In this document: piece after piece, positions 4,041 through 15,609 of the stretch
Layout: each line of letters starts with the position of its first letter
Numbering within the stretch: position 1 is the stretch's first letter
NCBI GenBank assembly: GCA_900315665.1
Contig: OMZX01000007.1
Coordinates: 10,769-44,408 of the forward strand
Origin: an uncultured Eubacteriales bacterium
GTDB taxonomy: Bacteria > Bacillota > Clostridia > Lachnospirales > Lachnospiraceae
DNA length: 33,640 bases
Direction: 5' to 3'
Translations under genes and position numbers: made by a program
The notes under the pieces: model-generated
Databases searched by the model: none
What the model was told of the DNA's origin: nothing
The model's input: the letters and a program-made list of their open reading frames with translations, nothing else

Positions 4041-4092
4041 AATGCTTCCTTTCTGGCCGTAGGCCGAGATTGTTTCGTAAGAAAAAGCAGAG

Positions 4093-4562: not shown

Positions 4563-5615
4563 ATGAAGACAATTAGCATCGTCGTTCCATGCTATAACGA
4601 GGAAGAAAATGTCATCCCGCTTTATGAAGCGCTGAAGCAGCTTTTCACGGAGCAGCTTTCCTCCTATAAATATGAAATCATCTATATCGACAATGACTCC
4701 ACCGATCACACACGGGATCAGATTCGCACCCTCTGTGCTAAAGATACTGACGTGAAGGGCATTTTCAATGCGAAAAATTTCGGTCAGTTCAACTCGCCGT
4801 ATTATGCGATGCTCCAGTCCACGGGCGACGCGACCATCCTGATGGCAGCAGACTTCCAGGATCCGCCGGAGATGATCCCGCAGTTTGTGAAGGCCTGGGA
4901 GGAGGGCTATAAGATCGCCATCGGTGTGAAGACCCACTCACAGGAGTCGAAGCTCATGTACTGGCTCCGCGGCTGCTACTACAAGCTTATCAAGAAGTGG
5001 TCCTCCGTCGATCAGATCGAGCAGTTCACCGGCTTCGGTCTCTATGACCATGCCTTCATCGATGTCATGCGCACACTCGATGATCCGACGCCATTTCTCC
5101 GGGGTATCGTGGCAGAGCTTGGCTTCCATCGGAAGGAGATCCCATATACTCAGCCGAAGCGCCGTGCCGGTGTCACACACAACAATTTTTACACGCTCTA
5201 CGATGCGGCAATGCTCGGCTTCACCTCCTATACGAAGGTCGGCCTCCGGATCGCTGTGTTTGCCGGTGGTATCTGCAGCGCCGTTTCCATGATCATCGCG
5301 ATCATTTACCTCATCATGAAGCTCATCTGGTGGGACCGTTTCCCGGCCGGCATGGCGCCGATGCTGATCGGCATGCTGTTCCTCGGCTCGGTACAGATCT
5401 TTTTCATCGGGCTTCTGGGAGAATATATCCTCAGCATCAATCAGCGTGTCATGCGCCGTCCACTCGTCGTCGAGGAGGAGCGTCTGAACTTTGGAAACGC
5501 TCCGATTTATCAGGGCGTGCATGATACTGCCCCGACGCCGGTTGCCTTTGATGCCAATGCACACACCAGTGCACCGACAGCAGGGCCAGATGAAGGAAGC
5601 ATTGGAAAAGGATAA
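4563..5615 (+). CDS. Family 2 glycosyltransferase, membrane-anchored (GtrB/DPM1-like)
   Basis: Probably moves a sugar from a nucleotide sugar to a polyprenyl-phosphate carrier at the inner face of the membrane. The N-terminal GT-A domain (about residues 1-230) begins ISIVVPCYNEEENV, has the nucleotide-binding IIYIDNDSTD strand and the metal/substrate motif ADFQDPPEM. Two C-terminal TM segments follow (about 228-258 and 275-300, the latter FFIGLLGEYILSI). This is the layout of undecaprenyl-phosphate glucosyl/glucosaminyl transferases (GtrB/ArnC-like) and dolichol-phosphate mannose synthases. AAAGGAAA precedes the ATG. The stop codon abuts the ATG of the next gene, so they are translationally linked. 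It is the first gene of the polysaccharide operon. The sugar donor cannot be told from sequence. Confidence 0.9.
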   Translation: MKTISIVVPCYNEEENVIPLYEALKQLFTEQLSSYKYEIIYIDNDSTDHTRDQIRTLCAKDTDVKGIFNAKNFGQFNSPYYAMLQSTGDATILMAADFQDPPEMIPQFVKAWEEGYKIAIGVKTHSQESKLMYWLRGCYYKLIKKWSSVDQIEQFTGFGLYDHAFIDVMRTLDDPTPFLRGIVAELGFHRKEIPYTQPKRRAGVTHNNFYTLYDAAMLGFTSYTKVGLRIAVFAGGICSAVSMIIAIIYLIMKLIWWDRFPAGMAPMLIGMLFLGSVQIFFIGLLGEYILSINQRVMRRPLVVEEERLNFGNAPIYQGVHDTAPTPVAFDANAHTSAPTAGPDEGSIGKG

Positions 5616-8096
5616 ATGAGAACAAAAATAGATATCGCGCTGGTGCGTGAAGGAAAATTAAATATTCAGGGCTGGGCGTTCGGCAAGGATCCGGAGACGC
5701 CGGTCAAGCTGTATGTGAAGGATGCTGCGGGAAATCGCATCGAGGACGCATCCATCGGCAGTGTGCGTCGGGATTCGGTGGTCGAAGCTTATTTCGGAAA
5801 CTATGTGAAGGAGCATGGCGCTATCCGGCGGGAGCTCGGGTTCGACATCGATGTACCGTTTCAGCATGGTGATACCTGTTATCTTTTTATCTGTGTTGAC
5901 GGCCGCCGTCGCCGCTATAAGTTCAATGACAAAATTATCGAGGAGTTCAACTCGCACGCACACAAGAAGCGGGAGAAGCTTCTCGCGCTTTTAAACTGGG
6001 AGACGGTCGAGGTGTCGCTTGAGACGCTGAAAAAGGACGGACTTCGTGTACTGTTCCGGAAGGGCATCCACAAGATTCAGGGCGTGCAGGAGGATTTTGA
6101 TTATAACGAATGGTTTGAGAAGACCCGCACGACGGATGAAGAGCTCGCGCATCAGCGCGAAGAATTCGCGAAGCTTTCTGAAGGAAGGCCGTTGTTTTCC
6201 ATCGTCATCCCAGCGTTCAAGACACCAGAGAAGTTTCTGCGCCGGATGCTAAAGTCCATCGAGGAGCAGACCTATGGGAATTTCCAGGTTTACGTCGCGG
6301 ATGCGACGCCGTATGATGGTCTCGTCTGGATGAAGGAGGACGGGAAGAAACCGAAGGAAGTCCTTCAGGAGTTTGCGAAGAAGGATCCGCGGTTCCATTT
6401 TTCGGTGCTTGAGAAAAATCTCGGTATCTCGGATAACACCAATGCCGCCATCGAGCTGGCGCTGCAGGCAGCTCCTTTCAGTGCGCCGCACTTCATCGTG
6501 CTGGCGGATCATGATGATGAGCTTGCCCCGGAGGCCCTGTGGGAATGCGCGAGGGTTGTCAGGGAGCATCCGGCGGCGAAGGTCATTTATACGGATGAAG
6601 ATAAAATCGATTTTGAGGATGCCTATCGCTTCGAACCACATTTTAAGACAGATTATAATCCGGACCTTCTCCGTTCGGTGAATTACGTGTGCCATCTTTT
6701 CGTGATGGAGGAGGGACTGCTTCGCTCCATCGCAGAGAAGGATGAAGCCGGAAATGTCGTGTATGAGCGGAAGCAGTACGACGGCGCCCAGGACTATGAT
6801 CTTATTCTCCGTGCGACCGAGAAGGCGCAGGAAATCGAGAAAGAAGAAATTGCGCAGCATGGACTAAGCAAGGAAGACCAGAAGCTGCTTTCTGAAGCGC
6901 GGTTCACCAGCTCCAATATTTTCCATATCCAGAAGGCACTGTATCACTGGCGCTCGCACCAGATGTCGACAGCTGCAAACCCGGAAGCGAAGCTCTATGC
7001 GTTTGATGCCGGCGCGCGGGCGATTTACGACCATTGTGTGCGGATCGGCCTGCCGGTTGAAAAGGTCGAGAAGGGCATCACGTACGGCTTTTATCATGTG
7101 AAGTATCGCACAGAGGAGCCGCTGATTTCTGTGATCATCCCGAATAAGGACCATACGAAGGACCTTGATAAGGCCATCCGGTCGCTGATTAAAGGAAATT
7201 ATAAAAATCTTGAGTTCATCGTCGTTGAGAACAACTCGGAGGAGGATGAAACCTGGCAGTATTATGACGCCATCCAGAAGGAGTTTCCGGCTCCGGCAGC
7301 ATGGGAAGCTGACGATGCGAAGGCAGGCGGTGTTACGACAACAGCAGCTGATATGAAGGCCTGCAGCCTGGAGCATCCGGTCGTCCGCGTCGTAAAGTGG
7401 GTGTCCGACCAGGGCTTTAACTATTCGGCCATCAACAACTTCGGCGTGCAGTATGCGCATGGCGATTATCTCCTCTTTATGAATAATGACATCGAACTGA
7501 TTGAACCGGATTCTCTCTATGAGATGCTTAGCTACGTGCAGCGCGAGGATGTAGGCATTTGCGGGGCACGGCTTTTGTATCCGGACGAGGTGATCCAGCA
7601 TGCCGGCGTTGTGGTCGGCTTCGGTGGCATCGCGGGTGCCGCATTTGTAGGCATTCATGATAAGGAGCTTACGTATATGCACCGCGCGAAGTGCATCCAG
7701 GATTACTCTGCTGTAACGGCCGCGTGCATGCTGTCGAAGCGGAGTGTATTTGATGCGGTAGGCGGTTTCACAGAAGAACTTGCAGTTGCGTTTAATGATG
7801 TCGATTTCTGCATGAAGGTGCGGGCACTTGGGAAGCTTGTCGTTTATAATCCGTATGCGAAGTTCTATCATTATGAGTCGAAATCGCGCGGCATGGAGGA
7901 CACACCGGAGAAGGTGCAGCGTTTTAATGGTGAGATTGTGAAGTTTGCGAAGCGCTGGCCGGAGATTATTCGCGAGGGTGACCCGTACTATAACCCGGCG
8001 CTTACCTTTATGAAGTCGAACTTTGTCCTGAAGGACCTCGACAAGGAAAACGTCGGCAAACCCTTCCACATGGACATCCTCGACGGCATCGTATGA
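5616..8096 (+). CDS. Large glycosyltransferase with two tandem GT2 domains
   Basis: 826-aa cytosolic enzyme predicted to add sugars to a growing surface polysaccharide. After an N-terminal beta-rich accessory region (about residues 1-115, GWAFGKDPETPVKLYV) and a linker, the first GT2 domain starts at about residue 190 (PLFSIVIPAFKTPEKF) with the DxD-type motif ADHDDE near residue 296. The second starts at about residue 502 (PLISVIIPNKDHT), with MNNDIEL near residue 621 and the acceptor-side segment GGFTEELAVAFNDVDFC. Two domains suggest two linkages or a polymerase, as in rhamnan and hyaluronan-type synthases (inference). It begins immediately after the preceding stop codon. No TM segments are seen. 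Confidence 0.9.
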   Translation: MRTKIDIALVREGKLNIQGWAFGKDPETPVKLYVKDAAGNRIEDASIGSVRRDSVVEAYFGNYVKEHGAIRRELGFDIDVPFQHGDTCYLFICVDGRRRRYKFNDKIIEEFNSHAHKKREKLLALLNWETVEVSLETLKKDGLRVLFRKGIHKIQGVQEDFDYNEWFEKTRTTDEELAHQREEFAKLSEGRPLFSIVIPAFKTPEKFLRRMLKSIEEQTYGNFQVYVADATPYDGLVWMKEDGKKPKEVLQEFAKKDPRFHFSVLEKNLGISDNTNAAIELALQAAPFSAPHFIVLADHDDELAPEALWECARVVREHPAAKVIYTDEDKIDFEDAYRFEPHFKTDYNPDLLRSVNYVCHLFVMEEGLLRSIAEKDEAGNVVYERKQYDGAQDYDLILRATEKAQEIEKEEIAQHGLSKEDQKLLSEARFTSSNIFHIQKALYHWRSHQMSTAANPEAKLYAFDAGARAIYDHCVRIGLPVEKVEKGITYGFYHVKYRTEEPLISVIIPNKDHTKDLDKAIRSLIKGNYKNLEFIVVENNSEEDETWQYYDAIQKEFPAPAAWEADDAKAGGVTTTAADMKACSLEHPVVRVVKWVSDQGFNYSAINNFGVQYAHGDYLLFMNNDIELIEPDSLYEMLSYVQREDVGICGARLLYPDEVIQHAGVVVGFGGIAGAAFVGIHDKELTYMHRAKCIQDYSAVTAACMLSKRSVFDAVGGFTEELAVAFNDVDFCMKVRALGKLVVYNPYAKFYHYESKSRGMEDTPEKVQRFNGEIVKFAKRWPEIIREGDPYYNPALTFMKSNFVLKDLDKENVGKPFHMDILDGIV

Positions 8097-8131
8097 AGCT
8101 GACACAGGTGACAGTTCTCCATGTGTCAACT
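8097..8131. repeat. REP-like single-arm element, AGCTGACACA...GTGTCAACT
   Basis: A 35-bp imperfect inverted repeat starts right at the stop codon of the tandem GT gene. Its ends (AGCTGACA and GTGTCAACT) match the ends of one arm of the large inverted repeat at 22061-22166. It fills most of the 49-nt gap to the next gene. Confidence 0.6.
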
Positions 8132-8145
8132 GAATAGACTAAATT

Positions 8146-9561
8146 ATGATCAAAAATAATCAACATCTTTTAAATCAATTTCATGTCGTGCTGGACGCGC
8201 TGATCATCGCGGGAGCCTGGGCGCTTGCCTGGTACTTGATGATCGGCTCACGCATTTTCCCGGCGGGCTACGGCGTTTTGCCGCCGCGGATTTATTTTAG
8301 CGCCCTGATTCCGATCATCCCCGTCTATCTCATCCTGTACTGGGCGTTTGGACTCTATCAGCCGAAGCGTACCCGCACGAAGCGCACCGAATTTTTCAAC
8401 ATCTGTAAGGCGAACACCATCGGGCTCATGCTTTTCACCTCGATTCTGTATCTCCTCCGCCGCTCCGGTTACTTTGCGCACTTTTCGACCCGTATGATCG
8501 CGGTCTTCTATCTCTTAAATATCGCGGCCTGTGGTATTGAGCGCGGCGGCATCCGCTTTATCCTTACGAGGATGCGGAAGCAGGGCTTCAATCAGAAGCA
8601 TATCGTCCTCGTCGGCTTCTCGGATGTGTCTGATATGTTCATTGACGCGTGCCACCGGAACCCGGACTGGGGCTATCATATCTATGGTATCGTCGATGAT
8701 ATCGTGCAGGACGGAGCCACCTATAAGGGTGTCAATGTTATCGGCCGCATCTCGGATCTCGAGCAGATTCTTGCGAAAAATACGATCGATGAGATCGCCA
8801 TCACCCTGCCGCTTGCCGCTTACGAAAAGCTCGCCGGCATTGTCGCCGTGTGTGAGAAGTCCGGCGTTCATACAAAGTTCATACCAGATTATACAAATAT
8901 CATCAGCTCGAAGCCCTCGACGGAGGACATGGACGGACTGCCGGTCATCAACATCAGAAACGTGCCGCTGACAGATCCGGTCAATGCCTCCATGAAGCGC
9001 CTCGTCGATATCTTTGGCTCGTTGTTTGGTATTGTTTTGTTCAGCCCCGTTATGCTGGTGACCGCTGTAGCCATTAAGCTGAGCTCCCCTGGGCCTGTGA
9101 TCTTTAAGCAGGAGCGGGTGGGACTCCATAATAAACCCTTTATGATGTATAAATTTCGTTCCATGGTACAGCAGAAACCGGAGGACGAGAAGAAGGGCTG
9201 GACGACGAAGGGGGATCCGCGTGTGACCCGTGTCGGCCGCTTCATCCGGAAGACCTCAATCGATGAGCTGCCGCAGTTTTTTAACGTTTTGCTCGGTACG
9301 ATGTCGCTGGTCGGCCCGCGACCGGAGCGCACGCAATTTGTCGAGATGTTCAAAGAGGAGATCCCACGGTATATGATCAAGCATCAGGTACGGCCGGGTA
9401 TGACCGGCTGGGCGCAGGTCAACGGCCTCCGCGGCGATACTTCGATTTACGAGCGCGTCCGGTATGACATCTGGTATATCGAAAACTGGTCGATGGCGCT
9501 CGATTTTAAGATTTTGTTCATGACGATTTTCAAAGGATTTGTCAACAAAAACGCGTATTAA
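8146..9561 (+). CDS. Undecaprenyl-phosphate sugar-1-phosphate transferase (polyisoprenyl-phosphate hexose-1-P transferase, WbaP/CpsE type)
   Basis: Initiates polysaccharide repeat-unit synthesis by moving a sugar-1-phosphate from a UDP-sugar to undecaprenyl phosphate. The 471-aa protein has four predicted N-terminal TM helices (about residues 12-130), a nucleotide-binding-like middle domain (HIVLVGFSDVSDMF near 152) and the C-terminal catalytic bacterial sugar transferase domain from about residue 282: MKRLVDIFGSLFG membrane hairpin, KQERVGLHNKPFMMYKFRSM, TSIDELPQFFNVL, MSLVGPRPER and VRPGMTGWAQVNG. All hallmarks of the family are intact. Its presence identifies the cluster as envelope/exopolysaccharide synthesis. 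The sugar (Glc, Gal or other) is not determinable here. No obvious strong SD was noted before the ATG; the upstream gap carries a repeat element. Confidence 0.95.
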   Translation: MIKNNQHLLNQFHVVLDALIIAGAWALAWYLMIGSRIFPAGYGVLPPRIYFSALIPIIPVYLILYWAFGLYQPKRTRTKRTEFFNICKANTIGLMLFTSILYLLRRSGYFAHFSTRMIAVFYLLNIAACGIERGGIRFILTRMRKQGFNQKHIVLVGFSDVSDMFIDACHRNPDWGYHIYGIVDDIVQDGATYKGVNVIGRISDLEQILAKNTIDEIAITLPLAAYEKLAGIVAVCEKSGVHTKFIPDYTNIISSKPSTEDMDGLPVINIRNVPLTDPVNASMKRLVDIFGSLFGIVLFSPVMLVTAVAIKLSSPGPVIFKQERVGLHNKPFMMYKFRSMVQQKPEDEKKGWTTKGDPRVTRVGRFIRKTSIDELPQFFNVLLGTMSLVGPRPERTQFVEMFKEEIPRYMIKHQVRPGMTGWAQVNGLRGDTSIYERVRYDIWYIENWSMALDFKILFMTIFKGFVNKNAY

Positions 9562-9660
9562 TGAGCGGCGCTGCCTGACAGAGGCGGCAGTCGCTGATCG
9601 CAGAAAATATATCACGACAAGGGCGGCGTGCAGCTCGGGTCCGCCCGAAACGGAGGAAAC

Positions 9661-11928
9661 ATGAAGCAAAAGCTCGCGAATTATCTGGCGGAGACGCTCG
9701 TGTCGCATGGCATCACGCAGAATTTCAGTGTGACCGGCGGTGGTGCCATGCATCTCAATGACGCCTTCGGGCATCAGACCGGCATGTATACGCTGTATCA
9801 GCATCATGAGCAGGCGTGTGCCATGGCGGCGGAAGCCTACAGTCGGATCTATAACCGTCCTGCGCTTCTCTGTGTGACGAGCGGCCCGGGCGGCACCAAT
9901 GCCATCACCGGCGTGCTCGGTGCCTGGCTTGATTCGCTGCCGATGATTGTAATCTCCGGGCAGGTCCGCTATGACAACACAGCCCGCTGGGCACAGGAGC
10001 AGAATGGCGTCCGTATCCGTGCGATGGGCGATCAGGAGTTTGACATCACACAGTCGATTGCCTGCATGACGAAATACTGTGAGATGCTCTCGGACCCGTA
10101 TCGCGTGCGCTATGCCATCGAGAAATGTCTCTATCTGTCTCAGACCGGCCGTCCGGGCCCCTGTTGGCTCGATATCCCGGTTGATATCCAGGGCACCTAC
10201 ATCGAGACAGAGGATCTCGTCGGCTTTGATCCCGCAGATTACGAGGCCGGCGGCGACGGCTGGGTGAAGGATACGGCCTATACAGAGGCTGCAAGTCTTT
10301 TTGCTGATGAGAATTCGCTTGAGAAAATAATGGCAAAAATTCTCAGCGAAGGCCCGCTCACGGTAGACAGTAATGAGGTGAGTGGCGCTGAGCTCATGAA
10401 GGCGACAGCAATAAAGATTTCGCTAAACCCGCATTGGCGGGCAGAGGACAGTGATTGCTCGAATCGTGAAAAGCAACCGGATCCCAATGGTTTATCATCA
10501 GAGACAGTACATAAAATTCTTACGAAGCTTCAGGCAGCGAAGCGGCCGATCTTCTACACCGGCAACGGTATCCGGATCGCGGGTGCAGAGACGCTATTTC
10601 TTGATGTCGCACATCGTCTCGGTATTCCGGTTGTCGTCGGTTGGAACGCTCCGGATGTGATCCCGACGGAGGATCCTCTCTACGTCGGACGTCCGGGTGG
10701 CCGTGGCGACCGTCCCGGCAATCTTGCAGTGCAGAACGCGGACTTTATTTTATCGATTGGTTCACGTCTCAACATCCGGCAGGTCGGCTATAACTTTAAG
10801 ACCTGGGCCCGCGATGCCTACGTGATCGTCAATGACATCGATGATGAGGAGCTTCGTAAGCCTTCCGTGCACGCCGATATGAGGGTGCATTGTGATGCGC
10901 GGCTGCTGCTGGCGGCGCTGCTCCGCGAGCTAGAAGCAGAAGGCGTGACAGCGGAGAAGCCACTGTTTTCTGATGCGGAAAACGGGCTTCTGCGCACGGA
11001 TGCGAAGGAAATCTGTCATACGGAAGTAGCAAGAAATACTCTTATGAAGGCAGCAGACATACGTCTCACCTGGCGGGAGACCTGCGCGTTCTATCGTGAC
11101 AATTATCCGACGGTTCTCCCGGAAATGCTGACACCTGGTGATGGTCCTGCCAATGTTTACGACGTCGTAGATACCTTGTCCCGGATGGCGAAGGAAAATC
11201 AGATCACCGTGGTTGGCAATGGCAGTCCCTGCGTCGCCGGTGGTCAGGCATACATCATTAAAAACGGAACGCGGTTCATCTCGCAGGATGCCGTCGCATC
11301 GATGGGCTATGATCTGCCGGCGGCGATCGGCGCCTGCATGGCAGTGCATGGTCCGGACCGAGAGAGGATGCCTGCGGCGGCAGCATTGGACTGCTACTGG
11401 ACCGGTAAGGACGAAGTATATCCGCCTTATGAGAAGCAGGATATCATCCTCCTCACGGGCGACGGCTCGATCCAGATGAATCTGCAGGAGCTCGAGACGA
11501 TCATCTCGCATCGCATGCCGATCAAGATTTTTATCATCAACAACGGCGGCTACCATTCGATCCGGCAGACGCAGACGAACCTCTTCGGAGAACATACACT
11601 GGTTGGTATCGGTGTTGACTCGGGCGAATGGGAAAAGCCGGATTTATGCTTCCCGGATATGGAGAAGCTTGCGGCAGCGTATGGGTATCCTTTTGTACGG
11701 GCGGAGCATAACCAGGAGCTTGAGGCTGCATTTACAAAGACGCTGGCAATGCCGGGACCTGCGATCTGTGAGATCATGGTGTCTTTGACGCAGCAGTTCC
11801 TGCCGAAATCGGCGGCGAAGCGGCTTCCGGACGGCTCGATCGTGAGCCTGCCGCTCGAGGATATGGCACCATATCTTCCTGATGACGAGATGGACAAGCT
11901 CATGCTTGTGCCGCGGGTGGAGGAATAA
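9661..11928 (+). CDS. Thiamine-diphosphate-dependent enzyme of a polysaccharide cluster (acetolactate-synthase-like)
   Basis: 755-aa ThDP enzyme with the acetohydroxyacid-synthase fold: an N-terminal PYR domain with catalytic E50 (YQHHEQACAMAAE) and TSGPGGTNAITG, a central Rossmann-like domain (NADFILSIGSRLNIRQVG), and a C-terminal PP domain with the ThDP/Mg motif GDGSIQMN near residue 600 ending in IINNGG. It is longer than the usual 550-600 aa because of extra segments at about residues 204-287 and 580-592. The start at 9661 is preferred over an upstream GTG (9628) because CGGAGGAAAC precedes it and PYR similarity starts there. Context suggests carboligation on a nucleotide sugar or another sugar-precursor step, as in YerE-like enzymes, rather than branched-chain amino acid synthesis; no small subunit gene is adjacent. 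Confidence 0.88.
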   Translation: MKQKLANYLAETLVSHGITQNFSVTGGGAMHLNDAFGHQTGMYTLYQHHEQACAMAAEAYSRIYNRPALLCVTSGPGGTNAITGVLGAWLDSLPMIVISGQVRYDNTARWAQEQNGVRIRAMGDQEFDITQSIACMTKYCEMLSDPYRVRYAIEKCLYLSQTGRPGPCWLDIPVDIQGTYIETEDLVGFDPADYEAGGDGWVKDTAYTEAASLFADENSLEKIMAKILSEGPLTVDSNEVSGAELMKATAIKISLNPHWRAEDSDCSNREKQPDPNGLSSETVHKILTKLQAAKRPIFYTGNGIRIAGAETLFLDVAHRLGIPVVVGWNAPDVIPTEDPLYVGRPGGRGDRPGNLAVQNADFILSIGSRLNIRQVGYNFKTWARDAYVIVNDIDDEELRKPSVHADMRVHCDARLLLAALLRELEAEGVTAEKPLFSDAENGLLRTDAKEICHTEVARNTLMKAADIRLTWRETCAFYRDNYPTVLPEMLTPGDGPANVYDVVDTLSRMAKENQITVVGNGSPCVAGGQAYIIKNGTRFISQDAVASMGYDLPAAIGACMAVHGPDRERMPAAAALDCYWTGKDEVYPPYEKQDIILLTGDGSIQMNLQELETIISHRMPIKIFIINNGGYHSIRQTQTNLFGEHTLVGIGVDSGEWEKPDLCFPDMEKLAAAYGYPFVRAEHNQELEAAFTKTLAMPGPAICEIMVSLTQQFLPKSAAKRLPDGSIVSLPLEDMAPYLPDDEMDKLMLVPRVEE

Positions 11929-11929
11929 G

Positions 11930-12895
11930 ATGACAGTTGTAGTGACGGGCGTCACGAGCTTTATCGGAATTTATACAGCAAGAGCACTGCTCAAGACCGG
12001 GGATCGCGTGATCGGTGTCGTGCGGCCGGAGAGCCATAACCTCTTAAAGCTTACGCAGGCGGGCATTACTAAGGATGAGAATTTCCGGCTGGTGCGGTTT
12101 GATTTCGATGACCTGCCAGAGCCGGAAGCCGGCGAAGAACACTACAGGGCAGTGCTCGATGAAGGCATTGGCTCACATATTATCGACGTTTGGCTTCACA
12201 TGAGCTGGGACGGCGTCGGCAGCGTCGGCCGGAGCGATAATGACATGCAGATTCGGAACGTACAGAACGCGAAGAAGGCCTACCTCATGGCAAAGGTGCT
12301 CGGCGCGCGCAAATTTATTTTCGCGGGCTCACAGGCGGAATACGGTCGCGGCACACACCCGCGCCCATGGCCCGTCAGCGCCTATGGCAAGGGCAAGCTC
12401 GCTTTCGGCCGATGGGCGACGGAGCAGAGTCTCATCGATGAGGTGCTTCATCCCGATTCCATGCAGTTCATCCACACCCGCATCTATTCTGTCTATGGCG
12501 ATGGCGATCATCCGACAAGTCTTGTGAACACTGTGCTTCGCGGTGCAATCGCCGGTGATCCCTTCTTTCTTGGCCCGTGCACGCAGATGTGGAACTACCT
12601 TGAGGTTCGCGACTGTGCGCGTGCGCTGACAATGCTCACACATGCGGCGGATACCCGCACGGATGTTTACGATATCGCAGGTGCTGTGACGGAGCCGCTT
12701 CGGCGCTATGTCGAAACCATGTACCGGCTTGCCGGCGGGCAGGGGCATCTTCAGTTCGGCATGCGCGGCGATAACGCGGAGGGTGCAGCCGACATGGATC
12801 CCCGTACGAGAAAGCTTGAGGACCTCGGCTTTCGTCAGGAGATTTCCTTTGAAGCTGGCATCGGTGAACTCGTGAAGAAGATGAGAAATCATTGA
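11930..12895 (+). CDS. NAD(P)-dependent epimerase/dehydratase/reductase (extended SDR)
   Basis: 321-aa extended short-chain dehydrogenase that probably epimerises, dehydrates or reduces a nucleotide sugar in the cytosol. The N-terminal cofactor motif is TGVTSFIG (residues 6-13). The catalytic YGKGK (YxxxK) is at about residues 151-155 after FAGSQAEYG. A substrate-domain segment WNYLEVRDCARAL follows. The start at 11930 is one base after the stop codon of the ThDP gene, and the protein then begins exactly at the cofactor strand. Such SDRs occur with ThDP enzymes and C-methyltransferases in deoxy- or branched-sugar clusters (family knowledge). The exact reaction cannot be assigned. Confidence 0.85.
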   Translation: MTVVVTGVTSFIGIYTARALLKTGDRVIGVVRPESHNLLKLTQAGITKDENFRLVRFDFDDLPEPEAGEEHYRAVLDEGIGSHIIDVWLHMSWDGVGSVGRSDNDMQIRNVQNAKKAYLMAKVLGARKFIFAGSQAEYGRGTHPRPWPVSAYGKGKLAFGRWATEQSLIDEVLHPDSMQFIHTRIYSVYGDGDHPTSLVNTVLRGAIAGDPFFLGPCTQMWNYLEVRDCARALTMLTHAADTRTDVYDIAGAVTEPLRRYVETMYRLAGGQGHLQFGMRGDNAEGAADMDPRTRKLEDLGFRQEISFEAGIGELVKKMRNH

Positions 12896-12927
12896 ATAGT
12901 ACAAGCTTTAATAGAAGAGGAGAAGTC

Positions 12928-14313
12928 TTGAACGAGCAGGCAAAAATCAATTATATCCCGAAGCATCGATGCCTTATCTGTGACGGCGCGCTTCACCCAT
13001 TGTGGGAGCTTCAGAATCTCCCGGCTTCCGCCCAGGATATTCCGACCCGTGAGGAGCTTTCCGAGGATCATCCGATTTCTTTGATGCTCTGCCAGTGCGA
13101 AGTCTGCGGTCTCGTGCAGTTTGACGAAGAACCCGTGCACTACTACCGCGATGTCATCCGCGCCGGAGGCGGCACCACGACGATGACGCACCTCCGCCAC
13201 GAAGAATACACCCGCCTCCTTCAAGGGGTCAGGCGAAATAAAGAAAGTATAAACTCGGGTAAGGAAAATGTAAGCATTCCGAACCGTTTTACTACAGAAC
13301 CACCAACACCGTTTAAGATCGTCGAGGTCGGCTGCGGCCGCGGTGAGTTTCTCGAAATGTGGAAGACGCTGCAGCTTCCAGGGGTCGAGAACTATAAAGG
13401 AAGCATAAACTTCAGCAAGGAAAATGTAATGGTTTCTGACCCCGTTCGTGTGGAAGATACAGGTTCGACTGACCATGCGGCAGAGCTTCCGCCGCTTCAC
13501 CTCGTCGGGCTCGAGCACAGTAACGCCCTTGTTGAGCAGGCGCGGGCAGCAGGCTTTGATGTCTATGAAGATTTTCCGGAGCCGGGCAAACCCTTCCCGG
13601 AGGGACCTTTTGATGCTTTCGTACAGTTTAATTTCCTTGAACACCAGCCCGATCCCAGGTCAATGCTTCGGGCGATTCGTGAGAACCTGCGCGACGGAGG
13701 CCTCGGCCTCGTCACAGTACCAAGTTTCGAATACATCCTGCACTATGACGGCTACTATGAATTTCTCCGCGACCACATCGCGAACTATACAGAACAGACG
13801 CTCGGCTATCTTTTCAGCGCGAATGGCTTTGAGGTTCTATCTCTTCGCATCGTAAATCGCGATACCATCGAAATCATCGTGCGGAAGGGGAAAGGAGACC
13901 CGTCCGCCTTCAAGTTTGACGGGCAGTTCGTCGATATGACACCGCTCAAGGAGAATTACGCGAAGCTGTCCCAGGCGGTCAATGCGCACATCACGGCGCT
14001 TTCCGCTGAGGGTGGCAGTCTCGCACTATGGGGCGCCGGGCATCAGGGCTTCACGCTCGCCTCGACCACCGAGCTAGGCGGTAAGGTCCGTTATATCATC
14101 GATTCAGCCGATTTCAAGCAGGGCAAGTTTGCACCGGCATCCCATATTCCGATTGTTCCGCCGGCGCACTTTCATGAAGATCCGGTGACAGAAATTCTCA
14201 TCGTGGCGCCCGGCTACACGGACGAAATTGCCGGTATCATCCGGAAAGATTTCGGTCCGGACGTGAAGATTTTGGTGCTCCGGACAGAGAAGTTAGAAGA
14301 ATACTCGAAGTAA
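12928..14313 (+). CDS. Class I SAM-dependent methyltransferase with N-terminal zinc ribbon (sugar C-methyltransferase type)
   Basis: 461-aa protein with the three-part layout of sugar C-methyltransferases. It has an N-terminal zinc-binding domain (C15xxC18 and C57xxC60), a Rossmann SAM-binding core (motif I VEVGCGRGEF at about 133-142, later FNFLEHQPDPRSML and GLGLVTVPSF) and a C-terminal domain with LALWGAGHQGF. It probably methylates a carbon of a keto nucleotide sugar. TTG at 12928 is chosen as start because AGAGGAG lies 5 nt upstream and the zinc ribbon follows at once. Two AT-rich, mutually similar inserts (residues 99-119 and 151-171) interrupt the core around motif I without breaking the frame. 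Whether the enzyme is active with them is not known. Confidence 0.87.
   Translation: MNEQAKINYIPKHRCLICDGALHPLWELQNLPASAQDIPTREELSEDHPISLMLCQCEVCGLVQFDEEPVHYYRDVIRAGGGTTTMTHLRHEEYTRLLQGVRRNKESINSGKENVSIPNRFTTEPPTPFKIVEVGCGRGEFLEMWKTLQLPGVENYKGSINFSKENVMVSDPVRVEDTGSTDHAAELPPLHLVGLEHSNALVEQARAAGFDVYEDFPEPGKPFPEGPFDAFVQFNFLEHQPDPRSMLRAIRENLRDGGLGLVTVPSFEYILHYDGYYEFLRDHIANYTEQTLGYLFSANGFEVLSLRIVNRDTIEIIVRKGKGDPSAFKFDGQFVDMTPLKENYAKLSQAVNAHITALSAEGGSLALWGAGHQGFTLASTTELGGKVRYIIDSADFKQGKFAPASHIPIVPPAHFHEDPVTEILIVAPGYTDEIAGIIRKDFGPDVKILVLRTEKLEEYSK
13224..13285 (+). repeat. In-frame coding repeat, copy 1
   Basis: 62-bp AT-rich segment inside the methyltransferase gene, starting AGGGGTC and ending GAACC. 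Over 62 aligned positions, 44 match copy 2 without gaps. It encodes the peptide core NKESINSGKENVSI just before SAM motif I, where relatives normally have a short linker. It keeps the reading frame. Confidence 0.7.
13380..13441 (+). repeat. In-frame coding repeat, copy 2
   Basis: Second copy of the methyltransferase insert, encoding YKGSINFSKENVMV in the same frame as copy 1. It lies between motif I and the next core strand (LVGLEHSN). Its ends form an inverted repeat, GGGGTC (13381-13386) and GACCCC (13438-13443), suggesting a small element with terminal inverted repeats; the matching right end of copy 1 has decayed. Confidence 0.7.
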
Positions 14314-14412
14314 TAAATAAAGCGGGATGCTATGCTTGGGATGTTTCTTCATATAACATCGCTTGTTTAGCAGAATTGAAAGAAAGCAATCTGTAAAAAA
14401 GAGAAGAAGAGA

Positions 14413-15609
14413 ATGAAAGCTTTTGTCCTAAAATCACATGCCGACATCGGCTACATGGAGAAGCCGTATCCGACGCTTCTTAAACCGCATGGTGCGATTC
14501 TCCGGCCGCTTTTTGTGTCGCCATGCACCTCTGACGTGCACACCATCTGGCAGGGCAGTCCGAAGCAGCCGAACCTCACGCTCGGTCATGAATGCGTGGC
14601 GGAGATCGTGTCTGTCGGCGCCGATGTGGTAGATTTTAAGCCGGGTGATGTCGTCATTGTATCCGCAATCACGCCCGACTGGTCTCAGCCCGATGTCATG
14701 GAAAATCCGGCGCATGCGGGGCGCAATTTCTCTGGCCATATGCTCGGGAAATCGATTGACGGCGCGATGGCGGAGGCCTTTTATCTTCCGTACGTTGACA
14801 AAAACGTCGCGCATATGCCGACAGCTATGGATCCGGACGATGCGCTCATGTGTGCCGATGTCATGCAGACCGGCCTTACTGCCGTAGAGGAGGCAGACGT
14901 TCAGCCCGGTGACACAGTCGTCGTCATGGGCATCGGCGCGATCGGTCTCGCCTCAATCATGGCGGCAAAGGCAGCCGGCGCGTCCCGCATCTTCGCCATC
15001 GGCTCCAGTGAGCCCAATGCCTCCATCGCCCGCTCTCTTTCGGGGGTCAGTTGTCAGATTGAGGTTCTGAATTATAAAACGTTGCATTGCACTCTTCCAG
15101 CGGGGCTGCACCCACTGGCGAACTCGACCGGCTCTGCTGTCGTGAATTATGTATTGCAGGAAACCGGTACGAAAGGGGCTGACAAGGTCATCATCTGCGG
15201 CGGTTCGGATCTTAGCCTCGCACAGGCCGTCGATATGGTGAAGTATGGCACTGGCGTTGTGTCAAACGTGATGTATTTCGGAGCAGATCCTGATCTGCAG
15301 GCGGAGGAACAGGAAGCACTTGCCCGACTTAGAAAAGAAACGTCCGGGATGCAACTCAACCAAACCATCGATGGTCTCGTGATTCCGAAGTTCGGCATCG
15401 GTCGCGGTATGGCAGGAAAAACGCTCAAGTTTTCCCTGAGTCGAGGCGGCCGCCCGCATCTTGAAAAAACAATTCGCCTCGTACAGGAGCAGAATCTCCA
15501 TCCCGGCATGTTCGTCACCGAGCATCTCCACGGTCTCGACCAGATTGAACAATCCGTCTACGACATGAAGAACCGAAAGGCCATCAAAATTTCCGTAGAC
15601 CTGCGCTAG
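14413..15609 (+). CDS. Zinc-dependent MDR alcohol/polyol dehydrogenase (secondary-alcohol dehydrogenase-like)
   Basis: 398-aa medium-chain dehydrogenase. The catalytic zinc ligands fit the clostridial isopropanol-dehydrogenase type: C38 in SPCTSDVHT, H59-E60 in LGHECVAE and D152 in CADVMQTG. The NAD(P) motif is VMGIGAIGLASIMAAK, and a second-half segment ILNYK-type strand survives as VLNYKT. The structural-zinc four-Cys lobe is absent, as in that subfamily. The protein is about 45 aa longer than the usual 350, with extra sequence at about residues 205-246 and 295-325. Being last in the operon after the methyltransferase, it likely reduces or oxidises a sugar or sugar precursor (inference). 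The ATG follows AGAAGAAGAGA at slightly short spacing. Confidence 0.86.
   Translation: MKAFVLKSHADIGYMEKPYPTLLKPHGAILRPLFVSPCTSDVHTIWQGSPKQPNLTLGHECVAEIVSVGADVVDFKPGDVVIVSAITPDWSQPDVMENPAHAGRNFSGHMLGKSIDGAMAEAFYLPYVDKNVAHMPTAMDPDDALMCADVMQTGLTAVEEADVQPGDTVVVMGIGAIGLASIMAAKAAGASRIFAIGSSEPNASIARSLSGVSCQIEVLNYKTLHCTLPAGLHPLANSTGSAVVNYVLQETGTKGADKVIICGGSDLSLAQAVDMVKYGTGVVSNVMYFGADPDLQAEEQEALARLRKETSGMQLNQTIDGLVIPKFGIGRGMAGKTLKFSLSRGGRPHLEKTIRLVQEQNLHPGMFVTEHLHGLDQIEQSVYDMKNRKAIKISVDLR

Follow-up and report, generated by a model that had tools for sequence, protein, structure and literature searches.

Two related units of 63 bp, c1 and c2, lie in frame within a sugar C-methyltransferase-like gene of the window (the whole stretch of 33,640 nucleotides that was analysed), and probably a REP/REPIN-type element, made of two inverted arms and a spacer in about 63-65 bp, was inserted there in frame long ago, on two occasions, and tolerated in loops of the encoded protein. 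As indicated in Table 1, the units are framed as 63 bp (21 codons), the limits being the GGGGTC (13381-13386) and GACCCC (13438-13443) ends of c2; these inverted ends had already been described in a sequence-only reading of the window, its end at 13441 leaving out the last two C. The host protein, for which we chose the TTG at 12928 as start codon in a frame that is open from 12892, matches Methyltransf_23 (E 4.3e-16) and Methyltransf_14 (E 4.4e-13) in Pfam and has TcaB9 as a relative of solved structure. No known RNA family matched positions 12900-13700 at E values up to 1.

Table 1. Positions of the host gene, of the two units and of their REP-type arms in the window.
Feature	Position	Strand	Basis or remark
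Host gene, sugar C-methyltransferase-like protein, 461 aa	12928..14313	+	Pfam, solved relative TcaB9
Unit c1, 63 bp, residues 100-120 (GVRRNKESINSGKENVSIPNR)	13225..13287	+	Left arm well preserved, right arm unrecognisable
Unit c2, 63 bp, residues 152-172 (GVENYKGSINFSKENVMVSDP)	13381..13443	+	GGGGTC...GACCCC ends
c1 left REP-type arm, 31 bp, GGGGTCAGG...TATAAACT	13225..13255	+	Arm pattern, 3 mismatches
c2 left REP-type arm, 31 bp	13381..13411	+	Weight matrix of four non-window copies
c2 right inverted arm, 27 bp, read on minus strand from 13443	13417..13443	-	G007 matrices

The repeat itself is real. The gapless match of 44 out of 62 positions between 13224-13285 and 13380-13441, on which the sequence-only reading was built, exceeds all values obtained from 200 codon-shuffled versions of the gene (maximum 36, mean 32.6), and the highest-scoring 62-base register within the gene, at 13219/13375, has 45 matches; in the 63-bp framing, c1 and c2 are identical at 43 of 63 positions. 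Both segments are indeed translated in the same frame, which is the sole stop-free forward frame of each unit, and the matches are spread evenly over the three codon positions (14, 15 and 14 of 21 each), as would be expected for descent at the DNA level rather than for selection on the peptides. The units had also been described as far more AT-rich than the rest of the gene; they are AT-rich (GC 0.43 in both; the remainder of the gene has 0.551, and each of its 63-base windows is at GC 0.44 or above), but moderately rather than extremely so, given that 15% of the 63-base windows of the whole window are equally AT-rich. Neither unit folds notably better than its shuffled versions (z of -0.97 for c1 and -1.64 for c2), and both are decayed. 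Searching 21 genomes with a profile built from both 22-residue peptides recovered the window itself, the next match in the source genome having an E value of 1.87 and the best match elsewhere one of 0.044.

We searched 60 relatives with the host protein, and 15 of them had a match, 14 of these belonging to the 16 congeners; no match was detected in G002 and G011 (72% and 77% complete), and the lone match outside the genus, a partial one in G024 (E 1.6e-5), was not used in the comparison. The 15 congeneric sequences consist of one frame per congener plus a second frame for G003, and two remote sequences were used in addition to these 15; the match in G010 contains one stop, and the open frame after this stop was used. 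Before SAM motif I, the loop is 12 residues long in all 15 congeneric sequences and 32 in the window, and taking c1 out shortens the latter to 11; c1 is thus an insertion when set against these congeners. It is missing from every one of the 15, as the sequence-only reading had anticipated, and its removal leaves the reading frame open. After SAM motif I, the loop length ranges from 13 to 42 residues among the 15 congeneric sequences and is 48 in the window, or 27 without c2, which is consistent with c2 being an insertion as well, in a loop of variable length anyway. Hence the short linkers that had been ascribed to the family are found at the first site and only partly at the second. In an AlphaFold2 model of the host protein, based on three sequences and with a mean pLDDT of 59.8, residues 152-172 (c2) and the second half of residues 100-120 (c1) belong to segments with pLDDT under 50, while the first half of c1 forms the end of a helix; this poor model is weakly compatible with c1 and c2 being loops.

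Lineage-specific loop inserts are also present in several genes of the sugar operon (window 4563-15606; orthologous loci L246-L249). In the G007 operon, four other genes have inserts of 24-50 residues that are rich in Ala, Ser and Thr, and the TPP enzyme of the source genome has a 25-residue loop insert at residue 231. Since loop inserts of this kind, which have no known likeness to REPs, occur often in the genus, loops also grow from other sources.

Unlike the complete units, their left 31 bp recurs at four other places of the source genome (G000). As a query in this genome, c1 finds, beyond c2, copies on contigs C78 (E 6.4e-6) and C107 (E 9.5e-4) and at a second place on C107 (E 0.023), and the left arm of c1 is identical to the C107 copy at 28 of 31 positions; the C107 copy in turn finds C8 (E 4.9e-20), C78 (E 1.0e-9) and the second C107 place (E 2.4e-8), and c1 only at 0.043. 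Beyond the 31-bp arm, the copies C8, C78 and C107A share a right half of their own. A six-copy model recovers its own six copies, as it must (E 2.9e-11 or better), and nothing further in G000 under 0.15 among the 150 of 289 candidates that were scored, so that weak copies may have escaped it. Neither this model, among the same 150 of 289 candidates, nor a search allowing 3 mismatches in 34 bases turned up another complete unit like c1 and c2. Contigs C11 and C78 terminate at this repeat or close to it, and therefore the draft assembly may be short of copies.

As read by eye from the ORFs, the other places in G000 lie between or beside ORFs, with the exception of C78. On this contig (L002, 772-1596, minus strand), an ORF that is open at the contig end carries a REP-type arm in its first part and a BglII endonuclease-like domain in its last part (PF09195, E 4.3e-7), and the arm may represent a second in-frame case if the ORF starts upstream. 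With C78 as possible exception, no copy is seen in the loop of another gene in these searches, of which that with the six-copy model scored 150 of 289 candidates, contrary to the many copies at loop positions of unrelated genes that the sequence-only reading had looked for. On C107 (L107), two identical 29-bp direct repeats, consisting of arm plus spacer (1893-1921 and 4059-4087), enclose 2.2 kb; this stretch codes for a Phd/YefM antitoxin and includes an HTH gene as well as an ORF of 280 aa that matches nothing in Pfam. On C8 (L144, minus strand), arm-like sequences GGGGTCAGGTC.. and GGTCACATTAAAATTT, at about 1090-1160 and 2489-2580, flank a gene with a PDDEXK_2 match below threshold (22.5 bits, cut-off 27.4).

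Several other matches were discarded. With regard to a possible promoter motif, the core AAATAAAGAAAGTATAAACTC also has intergenic matches in G003, G011 and G013, but four of these loci (L046, L047, L048 and L060) read as one and the same stretch between genes and were therefore not counted as copies. Seven plasmid and two phage records match the window repeat over 24-28 bases with E values of 0.2-0.8, which we took as chance; the C107 copy had no match among plasmids and phages, and an exact 23-mer of the right half was present in none of the viral contigs.

In tests independent of the window units, the four non-window copies were made into an nhmmer model, which, run on selected stretches, finds c1 with an E value of 2e-4 when scaled to 4.9 Mb. 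This model misses c2, as does the arm pattern at 3 mismatches. A weight matrix of the same four copies places c1 at rank 1 and the left arm of c2 at rank 2 of 67,220 positions. Among 10.09 million random positions, none reaches the score of c1 and 10 reach that of c2, and by this measure the likeness of c1 to the C78, C107 and C8 copies is beyond chance. The left arm of c2 is weak when taken alone, since 9 of 150 random windows contain a left-arm score as high; in an earlier run of 20 random windows the maximum was 17.8, against 16.7 for c2. Two further arm-like spots of the window were set aside, one at 15043 (+), which read by eye seems native to the neighbouring dehydrogenase, and one at 8916 (-), which seems to be a chance score.

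A search with the six-copy model pointed to the congener G007. A GGGGTC-N-G-type arm pattern, drawn from the G000 and G007 arms themselves, has 27 matches in G007, 5 in G000 and 1 each in G003 and G016, and none in 13 other genomes, the reversed pattern giving none in all 17. As lower bounds from draft assemblies, the 27 and 5 matches stay below a high copy number, over 100 REP copies per genome being usual according to PMC2817692. A second inverted arm is present to the right in 11 of the 23 G007 loci read, for a total of 64 (7 loci) or 65 bp (4 loci), and absent from the other 12; in 7 of the 23, a stop-to-stop frame of at least 100 codons spans the arm, these being open frames and not confirmed genes. 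The typed consensus of the G007 doublet folds at a z of -5.79, and the doublets have the REPIN architecture given in PMC3116915.

The G007 arms also bear on the right-hand ends of the window units. Two matrices were made from G007 only, one from 13 chosen arms and the other from the second arm type (10 places, 6 distinct), and both place the right inverted arm of c2 at rank 1 in the window, with scores that are reached in 2 and 4 of 150 random windows, respectively. The left arm of c1 has rank 3 under the G007 matrices and is equalled by 39 and 56 of 150 random windows, and the right arm of c1 is not recognised by them (rank 345 with one of the two). A related but different arm (GGGGTCAGGTACCA) was observed in two other genomes, where CCTGACCC ends with TTTATRAAAATTT.. 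lie by HTH and transposase-like genes (L190 on contig C36 of G016, near 1525 and 1748; L188 on contig C66 of G003, near 1384), and on the latter contig a weak arm lies 0.65 kb from a Y1 transposase-like gene.

Y1 transposase matches above the Pfam cut-off were found on two contigs of G000, C26 (133.8 bits) and C11 (54.1 bits), and once in G007. In the NCBIfam scan, which covered the C11 and G007 proteins, REP_Tyr_transpos matches the former with E 1.6e-21 and 76.7 bits and the latter with E 1.1e-20 and 74 bits, the cut-off being 80. The RAYT-like genes of C11 and G007 are probably one inherited gene, because both adjoin a Mg_chelatase gene. No arm was detected beside the RAYT-like gene within flanks of about 1.3-1.5 kb per side in G000 and G007, and since Y1 matches also occur in congeners without arms, presence of the gene does not track the arms. 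The G003 genome has 30 Y1_Tnp matches at E values up to 0.001, many of them partial, and nine of these start at most 6 bases from the first base of their contig, the pattern expected where copies of an IS200-type element interrupt the assembly.

If c1 and c2 descend from such a REPIN-type element, it would have moved as a folded single strand with a RAYT-like enzyme acting on it, and insertions out of frame in genes would have been removed by selection. The two insertions retained would be those in the loops before and after SAM motif I, and the DNA of both units would have decayed afterwards with the reading frame retained. We propose no function for the c1 and c2 peptides, which we infer to be tolerated only. 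The mobile, frame-preserving coding element suggested by the sequence-only reading therefore holds as regards a dispersed, mobile-type repeat family inserted in frame, but the family looks like one that ordinarily stays outside genes and twice entered one, rather than an element specialised for coding regions. It can be assigned to a known class, the REP type, although it had been described as unlike any element known to that reading.

The strongest rival to two separate insertions is one REP-type insertion followed by a local duplication or gene conversion that placed a copy 156 bp away, which we regard as unlikely. It agrees with the right halves of c1 and c2, which are alike at 20 of 32 bases (0 of 100,000 shuffles) and show no likeness to the right halves of the other copies in the source genome; however, the stretch between the units, including SAM motif I, is not duplicated, and the right arm of c2 is closer to the G007 arms than that of c1, so that c2 is not simply derived from the c1 of today. 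It is quite improbable, too, that larger mobile modules with nuclease-like or toxin-antitoxin genes have the arm as their border, and that the units are leftover module ends instead of REPINs moved by a RAYT. Such modules are suggested by the arm-like sequences on both sides of the PDDEXK_2-matching gene of C8, by the direct repeats around the Phd/YefM antitoxin of C107 and by the common sequence to the right of the arm in C8, C78 and C107A, whereas the G007 arms are short doublets or singlets and c2 has two arms inside 63 bp. It is very hard to credit that the units arose by ordinary internal duplication where loops change fast, as the variable second loop and the inserts of the G007 operon might suggest, and that they resemble other repeats by chance, since no random position reached the score of c1, and since c1 is not in all homologues and other left-arm copies exist, the opposite of what the sequence-only reading associated with such a duplication.

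Beyond the reading of c1 and c2 as inserted REPIN-type elements, a doubtful extension would be that a tagless REPIN-type family gives enzymes of this genus new loop peptides, with two independent insertions kept in this gene in its open frame, and that the same arms border nuclease-like and toxin-antitoxin modules. At 63 bp the element leaves the reading frame unchanged, and one of its forward frames is free of stops. In the bolder part of this proposal, the arm would be a mobility signal shared by several kinds of cargo.

Read as REPIN-type insertions, the units would account for the in-frame repeat and illustrate concretely how a repeat of extragenic type became coding sequence, the source being a REP-type family without known tags and with a possible RAYT partner. 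The genus offers 17 genomes for comparison, with many (1), few (3) or no (13) pattern matches. The portion of the literature that was searched contained no report from Clostridia, to which the source genome probably belongs by its gene content, of an extragenic-type repeat turned coding, and on REPINs and RAYTs in Clostridia one paper, on endonuclease phylogenomics, came up.

Rickettsia palindromic elements are short, palindrome-ended, in-frame insertions in protein genes, missing from homologues and present in many genes of one genome. The comparison with these elements drawn by the sequence-only reading is appropriate for the effect, an in-frame insertion with palindromic ends in copy 2, but it fails for the distribution, because c1 and c2 occupy one gene and not many; it is a comparison by description. 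Rickettsia palindromic elements are also mentioned in section 15 of PMC3733652, a paper whose main text contains no occurrence of 'Clostridi' or 'Firmicutes'. REPINs, as presented in PMC3116915, resemble the G007 doublets in having two inverted palindromic arms and a spacer in about 64-65 bp, in forming one hairpin and in being dispersed; in that paper they are extragenic and near RAYT genes, whereas c1 and c2 lie inside a gene in decayed form, and the flanks of the RAYT-like gene contained no arm. The GTAG and CGTC superfamilies of REPs carry a GTAG or CGTC tag, and the G007 arms, inspected by eye as printed, carry neither. In PMC3733652, REPs inside ORFs are described, over half of them in dimers or groups, which encode 20 to 30 residues, and some genes have been inserted twice. 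These intragenic GTAG/CGTC REPs are like c1 and c2 in lying in frame within genes, in adding 20-30 residues and in occurring, in some genes, twice; of the two units, c2 has both arms of a dimer. On this analysis c1 and c2 appear to be a case of the same kind as the published in-frame REP dimers.
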